This document shows, piece by piece, positions 5,075 through 12,777 of a stretch of 12,777 nt of DNA; position 1 is the stretch's first letter; every line of letters starts with the position of its first letter. Position numbers and translations under genes: made by a program. The stretch comes from an uncultured Collinsella sp. (GTDB lineage: Bacteria; Actinomycetota; Coriobacteriia; Coriobacteriales; Coriobacteriaceae): the NCBI GenBank assembly GCA_934650975.1, contig CAKUFW010000057.1, positions 1 to 12,777 on the forward strand, written 5' to 3'. The notes beneath the pieces were generated by a model that was given only the letters and a program-made list of their open reading frames with translations, searched no databases and was not told the DNA's origin.

Positions 5075-5272
5075 TTGCGAATCGAAGGTGAATACTTTTC
5101 TGCGAAGTGAACGAGCAAAAACGAGCCCCCGAAGCATCGACACTTTTCAGACGCCGTTTCCTGCGGTTTCACCAAGTTTTTCCTGCAGTTTTGGCGTCAA
5201 AAAGTGTGGATGCTTTGGGGGTCCAAAATAGGTCGTTCACTTCGCGGAAAAGTATTCGCCTTCGTTTTCGCG
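5075..5272. repeat. Long imperfect palindrome of about 198 bp (MITE-like or long hairpin RNA)
   Basis: The left arm (best part 5087-5155) is matched by its reverse complement at 5193-5260, with weaker pairing extending to about 5075 and 5272. Shared blocks include GAATACTTTTC, GCGAAGTGAACGA, CCCCC-AAGCATC and ACACTTTT. The 37-nt loop (5156-5192) itself holds a near-direct repeat, TTTCCTGCGGTTT and TTTCCTGCAGTTTT. At three positions where the arms differ the + strand pairing is U.G or G.U, against one such position for the - strand. It fills the gap between convergent genes; no credible ORF or transposase lies inside. Confidence 0.8.
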
Positions 5273-9275: not shown

Positions 9276-9337
9276 GACTAGTCGTTGGGGACGTTCTTAA
9301 ACGACTAGTCAAACAAGAACGTCCCCAATGACCAGTC
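9276..9337. repeat. GTCCCC-type hairpin repeat
   Basis: The left arm GACTAGTCGTTGGGGACGTT (continuing CTT, 9276-9298) pairs with 9315-9337 (AAGAACGTCCCCAATGACCAG and TC) at 21 of 23 positions. The loop contains a further copy of GACTAGTC, itself a palindrome. It is a candidate REP-like element; no transposase is present. Confidence 0.75.
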
Positions 9338-9402: not shown

Positions 9403-9572
9403 CAACGCCGATGTTTTGGCAAAGCCAGCGAGCGCCCGTCATTTGAGCCAAGGTGCCGTGAAATGAAAAGGCGCTGACCTTCTGGTCGCGCCTTTGAAAT
9501 TGAACGGCAGATTGGCCAAATGCCGGGCGCGCAGCGTCGGCCGGTTACGCGGGTTGGTAAACCCGCGTAACC
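9403..9572 (+). ncRNA. Candidate structured RNA, copy 1
   Basis: About 170 nt that align end to end with 12531-12699. Conserved blocks include CAACGCC, TTGGCAAAG-CAGCGAGCG, GTGAAATGAAA, TTGAAATTGAACGGCAGATT and CAGCGTCGGCC. A long helix pairs 9433-9451 with 9512-9529. Inside it TGCCGT (9454-9459) pairs with ACGGCA (9504-9509). A 12-bp hairpin with a bulged T lies at 9467-9495 (loop TTCT). A 13-bp hairpin at 9543-9572 with loop GGTA ends in the stop codon of the GntR gene on the other strand. Between the copies the long helix and last hairpin have different sequences yet remain paired. No T tract follows. Function unknown; strand chosen from G.U pairs. Confidence 0.68.
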
Positions 9573-10291
9573 TACATGACCATGACGTAGCGCGATCCTA
9601 CGTAGTACTGCTTACCCATCAGGACCGGCTCGTCGTTGGGACCAATAAAACCGGCGCGCAGGTTGAGCAGCGGATCGTGCGGGGCAATGCCCAGCTCGGC
9701 CGCCTGCTCGGCGTTGGCGCGAACGGCCTCGACCGTGCGGTAGCCAACCGAGACGATCGGGGTGCCGCCAACACGCTCGACTTCGGCAAAAATCGACTTA
9801 TCCTCAAGATCGGCCGTCAACAGCTCGCGATACTCATCGAACGGCACAAAGATGTTCTCCTCAAAGATGGGCTCACCATCGGCCGTACGCACGCGCTTAA
9901 TATGCAGCAGCAGCGCATCCTTCTGCAGACCAAAGAATTCCATCTCGTTTTGACGTGCCGGCACAATCTGGCGATCGACCACATGTGCACCGGCCTTCAT
10001 GTCATTGTCGGCACACAGCGCGGTAAACGTCTGCAGCGTCGAAGCATGGAACTGGCGGTTGATATGCGGCGTGGAGACAAAGGTGCCGCGGCCCTGCTGC
10101 TTAACCAGGTAGCCATCGGAGCACAGCTCCTCGACGGCGCGGCGCACCGTAATACGGCTCACCTCGTACTGATCGGCAAGCTCGAGCTCGGACGGGATAC
10201 GCTCCTTGGGTGCATAAACACCCTTCTCGATCGAATCCTTGATCTCATCGTAAATCTGCTGGTAAAGCGGTGCGTTTTTAGGTGCGGACAT
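9572..10291 (-). CDS. GntR-family transcriptional regulator, HutC/UTRA subfamily (regulator 2)
   Basis: 239 residues. The winged helix covers about 7-72: PLYQQIYDEIKDSIEKG, PSELELADQYEVSRITVRRAVEEL with the recognition helix around 43-56, and the wing QQGRGTFV. The UTRA domain (about 88-235) ends in VLMGKQYYVGSRYVMVM. The recognition helix is almost identical to that of regulator 1 (SRITVRRAVEEL against GRITVRRAVEEL), so their operators may be related, while the UTRA domains are more diverged and probably sense different ligands. The start is ATG with a weak AAGAG-type ribosome site. It is monocistronic as far as can be seen: recQ lies 370 bp downstream with its own -10. Its target genes are not obvious; autoregulation or control of the SIS-like gene at the right edge are possibilities. 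Its stop codon overlaps the end of the candidate RNA by one base. Confidence 0.95.
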   Translation of the reverse strand: MSAPKNAPLYQQIYDEIKDSIEKGVYAPKERIPSELELADQYEVSRITVRRAVEELCSDGYLVKQQGRGTFVSTPHINRQFHASTLQTFTALCADNDMKAGAHVVDRQIVPARQNEMEFFGLQKDALLLHIKRVRTADGEPIFEENIFVPFDEYRELLTADLEDKSIFAEVERVGGTPIVSVGYRTVEAVRANAEQAAELGIAPHDPLLNLRAGFIGPNDEPVLMGKQYYVGSRYVMVM

Positions 10292-11613: not shown

Positions 11614-11737
11614 CTAAGTGAGTAGACCTTTTGCGATCTGCCGAGCACACCCAATAATAGCCACCTCTGCGACCTGCGGTTTTGCTAAGGCAGATACGCT
11701 TTGTGCTCCGCCTGCGCCAAAAAGCCTACTCACTTAG
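11614..11737 (-). terminator. Long hairpin element after the HAD gene, possible terminator or MITE
   Basis: CTAAGTGAGTAG (11614-11625) pairs perfectly with CTACTCACTTAG (11726-11737). Pairing continues inward imperfectly through a T-run and GAGCACA/TGTGCTC, giving arms of about 36 bp. On the - strand the right end of the hairpin is followed by ATTTTTG, a short U tract. Two arm differences give U.G pairs on the - strand only. Both facts favour - strand RNA, the direction of the HAD transcript, whose stop codon is about 95 bp upstream. The 300-bp gap holds no gene. Confidence 0.6.
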
Positions 11738-12530: not shown

Positions 12531-12699
12531 CAACGCCCCGTTATTGGCAAAGTCAGCGAGCGAGTCTCTGTCGTGACAAGGTGCTGTGAAATGAAAGGGC
12601 GCTGACCTTTCGGTCGCGCCCTTGAAATTGAACGGCAGATTGTCCGACAGAGGCTCGCGCAGCGTCGGCCTCTCCGCCGTTCGGTAGAACGGCGGAACC
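12531..12699 (+). ncRNA. Candidate structured RNA, copy 2
   Basis: It matches 9403-9572 in length and in all conserved blocks. The long helix pairs 12560-12579 with 12640-12658, with a sequence quite different from copy 1 yet still complementary. The inner helix TGCTGT (12582-12587) / ACGGCA (12632-12637) has a U.G pair on the + strand. The hairpin at 12595-12623 has one compensatory pair change and loop TTTC. The final hairpin TCCGCCGTTC-GGTA-GAACGGCGGA (12673-12696) keeps the GGTA loop on a different stem. A TATAGT at 12524-12529 could serve as a + strand -10 box, but it has no counterpart in copy 1. Confidence 0.68.
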
Positions 12700-12701
12700 T
12701 A

Positions 12702-12777
12702 TTAGTAGGAAAGCTTCCACATGTAGCGACGCATGGTCAGCGGGTGCTGACGGGCCTCGGCGATCTGGTTGCCGTAC
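12702..12777 (-). CDS. C-terminal 24 codons of a gene, possibly a second SIS-domain sugar enzyme
   Basis: The - strand frame entering from the right edge reads YGNQIAEARQHPLTMRRYM then WKLSY and stops at TAA. The ending RRYMxxxxY resembles the C-terminus of the SIS enzyme in this window (DHSPEFRRYMGIEQY), and the preceding HPL/HSP positions align. I therefore suspect a paralogous SIS-domain deglycase or isomerase, but 24 residues do not prove a family. The stop codon lies 2 bp from the candidate RNA copy 2. Which regulator, if any, controls it cannot be seen. Confidence 0.5.
   Translation of the reverse strand, partial: YGNQIAEARQHPLTMRRYMWKLSY

Follow-up and report, generated by a model that had tools for sequence, protein, structure and literature searches.

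attC sites of integrons keep their structure while their sequence varies, lie at the 3′ end of a gene and fold from the antisense strand. The ERIC and RU elements are intergenic imperfect palindromes of 100–170 bp with a mobile-like character, and they are not known to be anchored to stop codons. The CGTC-tagged REPs, as PMC3733652 describes them, are dispersed extragenic palindromes found mostly 3′ of genes, in which a CGTC tag lies 5′ of a hairpin with a stem of 8–9 bp, a loop of 4–5 nt and A-T as first and second pairs; in that description no dedicated transposase is known for them. In E. coli, REPs lying no more than 15 nt from a stop codon are reported to affect translation (PMC12306157). 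The Collinsella-1 motif (RF01700) appears in a table row of PMC2864571 as "Actinobacteria, human gut".

The stretch analyzed here, called the window, comprises 12,777 nt from an uncultured Collinsella sp. (contig CAKUFW010000057.1, GCA_934650975.1). It carries two copies of an element, at 9403–9572 and 12531–12699, both on the + strand. Positions 9403–9542 and 12531–12670 align without gaps over 140 nt at 80% identity, and no other direct repeat in the window is larger, bearing out the shared architecture that an earlier note had proposed for the two segments. The element consists of a hairpin of ~130 nt followed by an optional terminal hairpin of ~30 nt. The larger hairpin has the feet CAGCGAG and GCAGCGTCG with a variable outer helix between them, conserved internal loops (GTGAAA..TTGAAC and CAAGGTG..CAGATTG), and an apex made of a CTTNNG loop on a stem from which one T bulges.

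In copy 1, the alignment of copies places the left end motif AACGCCGATGTTTTGGCA.., a Collinsella variant, at 9404–9425, followed by the left foot CAGCGAG (9426–9432), which is conserved across genera, as is the right foot GCAGCGTCG (9531–9539). Fold and covariation define the long hairpin at 9432–9530 and the apical stem-loop at 9467–9495, and the outer arms read from the fold (9432–9451/9512–9530) lie where the long helix had been placed before. The terminal hairpin (9543–9572; 13 bp, GGTA loop) overlaps by its last base the stop codon of a − strand gene (9572–10291) that Pfam identifies as a GntR/UTRA regulator. In copy 2, repeat comparison and folding place the left end and long hairpin at 12531–12667, with outer arms at about 12560–12579/12640–12658, the right foot at 12659–12667 and a terminal hairpin, again with a GGTA loop as had been claimed for both copies, at 12673–12696; all are on the + strand. 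This copy matches our covariance model R1 over 12542–12667 (143.9 bits) and ends 2–5 nt from a − strand stop codon (12702–12704), whose gene has a relative (L002:470-1462) carrying a SIS domain (Pfam). The abutting − strand stop codons noted earlier are real; given these gene identities, the description "sugar-metabolism-type" is only loosely right.

A search of the window against Rfam 15 at E ≤ 10 matched neither element, with Collinsella-1 in the library, so the element keeps its unassigned status; its likeness to Collinsella-1 is one of host group, judged by name and table entry (PMC2864571), and it differs in that the window gives no RF01700 match at E up to 10. In 20 outgroup loci searched at E ≤ 1, only mir-9424 and sok touched the element, far below their cut-offs, and a known Rfam family was rejected. 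Topical literature searches returned no description of the element; an earlier listing is possible in the supplements of PMC8040213, where thousands of human-microbiome candidates are listed.

The earlier note had regarded the feature as two-copy, which was wrong, and had proposed a search for many further copies, which were found. A blastn survey of 43 genomes of the genus, in which no more than 20 candidates were scored for any one genome, detected the element in 22. With R1, which was built from 34 copies and gives rough E-values, each of four genomes showed 32–40 raw matches; counting one match per place at ≥48.9 bits left 31, 27 and 29 copies in three Collinsella aerofaciens-type genomes. 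At E ≤ 0.001, R1 matched 70 of the 297 genomes sampled from the order, in 21 of its 107 sampled genera, a lower bound because the filters were strict, and in a phylum sample of 296 genomes it matched six, all from the same order. A 21-base pattern matched 17 genome_contigs records, of which 15 were Collinsella; the others, Algoriphagus and Contendobacter, did not match the profile and look like chance matches. The element is thus a dispersed family with many copies per genome in Collinsella and related gut bacteria, apparently not previously catalogued.

A phage origin was rejected, as no phage record matched and no viral contig contained the 21-base pattern, and so was a plasmid origin: the lone "plasmid" record, NZ_OY725717.1 (899,693 bp), carries core genes, and its match coordinates agree with contig C6 of genome G007. 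Two loci (L054 and L055) are near-identical, their abutted proteins sharing 96% identity, although the genomes are placed in different families; this may reflect recent transfer or contamination.

The place of the element was determined, using heuristic gene calls, for 90 copies (96 less six near-duplicates). The gene on the 3′ side lay on the opposite strand in 80 cases and on the same strand in six, with none in the stretch in four. Among the 80 opposite-strand cases, 57 genes lay 29–45 nt from the core, which is the space occupied by the terminal hairpin, ten within 10 nt, four at 11–28 nt and nine beyond 45 nt. A set of 62 further copies from outgroups gave 55 opposite-strand genes against seven, at distances within 10 nt (7), 11–28 nt (4), 29–45 nt (30) and beyond 45 nt (14). 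The gene on the 5′ side read toward the element in only 32 of the 90 copies. In the annotated record NZ_OY725717.1, all 12 copies above 50 bits overlapped a stop codon or lay at most 36 nt from one, and the opposite-strand genes concerned encode a hexose kinase, an SDR, an M20 peptidase, a D-2-hydroxyacid dehydrogenase and DAHP synthase or are queA, tyrS, map, rpoC, lysS, proB and lacB.

Many abutted genes are housekeeping genes, such as rpoC, lysS, tyrS, pheS, prfA, tsf, groEL and ftsZ. The same gene was abutted in four genera for groEL, in three for purH and in two each for pheS, greA, tsf, ftsZ, queA and trpS, and cross-genus orthologue-like pairs numbered 21 of 5812 for abutted genes vs 10 of 9534 for the genes that flank the element on its 5′ side. 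Non-essential genes are abutted too (6-phospho-beta-glucosidase, DmsB twice, an aldehyde dehydrogenase-like gene and HypB), and six of the 30 abutted genes examined fell into no family at threshold. In Collinsella, the median codon adaptation of abutted genes exceeded that of 5′-side genes (0.659, n = 34, vs 0.582, n = 41; p = 2e-5). A strong replication-strand bias was rejected, as 37 of 46 abutted genes were co-directional with replication, modestly above the other genes (120 of 184); among the copies listed, 88 of 110 ran against the fork. In one locus, an annotated IS110 transposase gene (L201:621-1733) ends ~85 nt before the tyrS copy of the element.

The + strand, which is antisense to the adjoining gene and thus its template strand, folded far better than shuffled sequences in both window copies (z = −8.5 for copy 1 and −8.4 for copy 2, with none of 200 shuffles as good); the − strand folds beat their shuffles less strongly (z = −6.3 and −5.9). 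Covariation was assessed on 89 copies (86 distinct) in an alignment fitted to the model, with shuffled and slid versions as controls. Both sides had changed in 39 of 42 pairs, and 94.8% of cells were paired, compared with 65% in shuffles and 31–47% in slid versions; none of 500 shuffles reached the observed value. The outer helix varies freely, while the feet and internal loops are conserved over 21 genera. Selection on an RNA fold had been proposed from the two window copies: a selected secondary structure stands, and its action as an RNA is only a possibility. The covariation does not single out RNA, because a folded DNA strand or a cruciform predicts complementary change just as well.

Across copies, the + strand was the better folder in all 55 cluster representatives, with both RNA and DNA parameters. 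When only the terminal hairpin was folded, the + strand was weakly preferred (33 vs 20, p = 0.24, with RNA parameters; 34 vs 19, p = 0.016, with DNA parameters). A strand-neutral count of wobbles in 57 clusters gave 48 G.T against 21 A.C (p = 0.0016). The internal loops are rich in G.A, and a tandem U.G site (columns 31–32) is conserved. No conserved promoter was seen before the + strand, promoter-like pairs occurring upstream in 4 of 55 representatives vs 3 of 55 on the opposite strand, and the aligned copies have no conserved terminator on that strand.

A perfect terminal hairpin of at least 6 bp was lacking in 34 of 128 scanned copies, being absent in some and mismatched in others. Where present, its commonest stems measure 10–13 bp and start with a G-C pair, with loops of 3–4 nt. 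Among 46 unique perfect hairpins, 43 have a G-N-A or G-N-N-A loop, and the third base of the tetraloops is a pyrimidine in 30 of 32. GNRA loops are favoured in RNA. GNNA is presented in PMC8373063, citing Nakano 2002, as a stable DNA loop type, and the GNYA/GNA terminal loops are of this DNA-stable rather than the GNRA/UNCG type. Alternatively, the loop preference could reflect recognition by a protein.

At fixed loci the element turned out to be exchanged between strains. At gntR, where copy 1 lies, 16 of 20 close genomes had full R1 matches, two had matches cut by an end and two had kept no more than right-end remnants; next to the stop codon stood a unit of helix type D in 14 genomes and of type C in six, the window having type E, and three distant Collinsella gave no match. 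At the copy-2 site, eight of 19 close genomes carry the element, and in the other 11 (L175 and ten others of L173–L191) a different palindrome, GTTGCGGTGAAATAGTTCC.., occupies the gene end, so several palindrome families share this niche. R1 matched at lysS in 20 of 21 clade genomes, the last, cut by its contig end, showing the right-end motif (types A in 10, B in 8, D in 2, one unreadable), and at prfA in 20 of 20 (B in 10, A in 5, C in 5). Judged from these sequences, the elements at lysS and prfA are of three unrelated helix types among strains. Seven distant Collinsella had no R1 match at the lysS and prfA sites.

Some loci hold traces of earlier units. A whole unit is joined to an older one cut at its apical loop in L139, L152 and L310 and near its right foot in L301, L141, L142 and L148; the older, truncated units lack their left half, and L142 is a chimaera, one arm belonging to one helix type and the other arm to another. 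No clean empty site was found at the loci compared, where replacement rather than simple insertion was seen. Solo right ends were rejected as a class: with a strict pattern, four of 39 lacked a left foot within 150 nt, and these were three tandem units and one copy split by an IS200-like element. Such an IS200-like insertion, with a Y1_Tnp gene, lies inside a copy at L163:1200-2130 and separates its left and right halves.

Intrinsic terminators were searched for at the same gene ends. The element itself differs from the definition of an intrinsic terminator, a GC hairpin with a U-tract on the sense strand. At rpoC, nine of 21 clade genomes carry the element, with no canonical terminator within 130 nt in any of them, and all 12 others have a canonical terminator within that distance and no element; this exclusion may represent one or a few events, given the relatedness of the genomes and the close similarity of the nine elements. 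A terminator-like site lies within 260 nt in two of the nine element-bearing genomes. Among nine distant genomes, all without the element at rpoC, the detector found a canonical terminator in two, and in several more a GC hairpin is followed by a T-run that is shorter. No intrinsic terminator was found within 140 nt at the 41 loci with an element at lysS or prfA, some of which end early at a contig boundary, and distant genomes had canonical terminators at lysS in five of seven and at prfA in two of seven. Over all gene ends examined, a deficit of terminators at abutted genes was not significant (5 of 34 vs 22 of 73 in Collinsella, p = 0.10; 8 of 43 abutted vs 12 of 50 gene ends in outgroups, p = 0.62), so that rpoC is the one gene at which terminators are clearly lacking.

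Like the attC sites outlined above, the element likewise combines a conserved structure with a variable sequence, a place at the gene 3′ end and an antisense folding strand. However, its terminal stem starts with GTTNCG and not with the GTTRRRY that the outer-to-inner box of the attC consensus would require, and its copies lie at dispersed core genes and form no cassette arrays. ERIC and RU elements are like it in being intergenic imperfect palindromes of 100–170 bp with mobile-like character, but they belong to other taxa; their sequences were compared through Rfam only. With regard to a MITE, which has terminal inverted repeats and a target-site duplication, the feet CAGCGAG and GCAGCGTCG are alike directly and not inversely, and the loci compared offered no clean empty site for scoring a duplication. 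The CGTC-tagged REPs described in PMC3733652 share with the element its niche, an unpaired tag at the palindrome end and the lack of a known transposase: almost every aligned copy has GCAGCGTCG ahead of its terminal hairpin, 3–5 nt from the stem. Measured against that description, the element has a longer stem (10–13 bp vs 8–9 bp), a loop of 3–4 nt and G-C as the first pair. It further differs from REPs and BIMEs, as the cited sources present them, in its length (~170 nt), its second long covarying hairpin, the separation of the tag from the stem, and its fixed orientation and stop-codon distance. A RAYT/Y1 transposase partner was rejected, as PF01797 is absent from the copy-rich genomes G272, G102, G195 and G115 (14, 10, 11 and 6 R1 matches, respectively); Y1 transposases were present in 32 of 40 genomes searched.

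With slightly less than even confidence, we read the element as a dispersed, non-coding, exchangeable gene-end hairpin of Coriobacteriales, REP-like but larger and modular, that would spread as a single-stranded DNA fold and replace the terminator. Copies may spread, or replace one another, through folded single-stranded DNA on the template strand of the gene, with a putative recombinase or template switching at hairpins as the agent of exchange; in place, the element would probably stand in for the lost terminator as a 3′-end or boundary structure. Position, strand, turnover and the mutual exclusion at rpoC are observed; the single-stranded stage, the enzyme and the gene-end function are what we infer here. 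In favour of this reading are the copy number and range, the covariation, the better + strand fold, the terminal loops, the lack of a conserved promoter, the opposite-strand gene on the 3′ side, the exclusion at rpoC, and the exchanged helix types and truncated units. Against it, a search for Y1_Tnp (PF01797) in four copy-rich genomes found no linked recombinase or transposase, the loci compared gave no clean empty site, the terminator contrast is clear at rpoC only, and genera share abutted genes, as they would if the element served the host and were not mobile. Its most specific form, a portable gene-end cassette, is tentative and rather doubtful: hairpins of single-stranded DNA would have been moved or swapped between loci by a putative recombinase recognising the stop-codon/terminator region of strongly transcribed genes, displaced essential-operon terminators across Coriobacteriales and become their present 3′ ends. 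If the exchangeable-hairpin reading is true, this is an order-wide repeat of near base-fixed position at the stop codons of essential genes and of nearly free sequence, replacing an intrinsic terminator. The question of REP-type repeats as parasites or as gene-end machinery would then become directly testable in human gut bacteria, and the coexistence of rpoC with and without the element among strains offers a natural comparison.

A vertically inherited host device at housekeeping genes, acting in the 3′ end of the sense mRNA as a terminator, as a stabiliser of the mRNA end or, in the manner of a REP, as a brake on the termination of translation, would explain the fixed place at the stop codon, the replaced rpoC terminator, the same genes across genera and the high codon adaptation of abutted genes, and fits the reported effect of REPs ≤15 nt from stop codons (PMC12306157). 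We think it unlikely, because the sense strand is the worse folder in 55 of 55 representatives, the wobbles fall on the other strand, there is no U-tract and helix types are swapped among strains. The wobbles and fold preference would rather suit a structured + strand RNA, antisense or intergenic, ending at the convergent gene's 3′ end and acting through its fold; strong covariation, G.A-rich conserved internal loops and the conserved tandem U.G site also argue for it. Yet neither promoter nor terminator is conserved on that strand, the 5′-side gene points toward the element in 32 of 90 copies only, the loops are GNYA/GNA and not GNRA or UNCG, and interiors are exchanged at fixed loci, which makes such an RNA quite improbable. 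Mosaics, truncations and swaps, together with the other palindrome that 11 of 19 genomes have at the copy-2 site, are what functionless palindromes would show if replication errors only (template switching, ectopic gene conversion) kept them perfect and shuffled them. This seems very improbable given feet and internal loops conserved over 21 genera beside a freely varying outer helix, and a fixed distance to the stop codon.

The window contains other repeats. Three long imperfect inverted repeats of other sequence lie outside the called genes, at 5080–5267, 1940–2085 and 11614–11737 (arms of 68, 61 and 36 nt, respectively; 75–81% complementary), and the first includes a sub-threshold hammerhead match at 5149–5205 (E = 0.018, 24.7 bits where the cut-off is 52). 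Repeats that look like REPs are present at 9276–9337 (GACTAGTCGTTGGGGACGTTCTT) and at 2171–2222/10382–10433 (AACCTACCAAAAAGGGACAGGTTTATTTTGG), and sequences like them recur 5′ of many copies of the element in other genomes.
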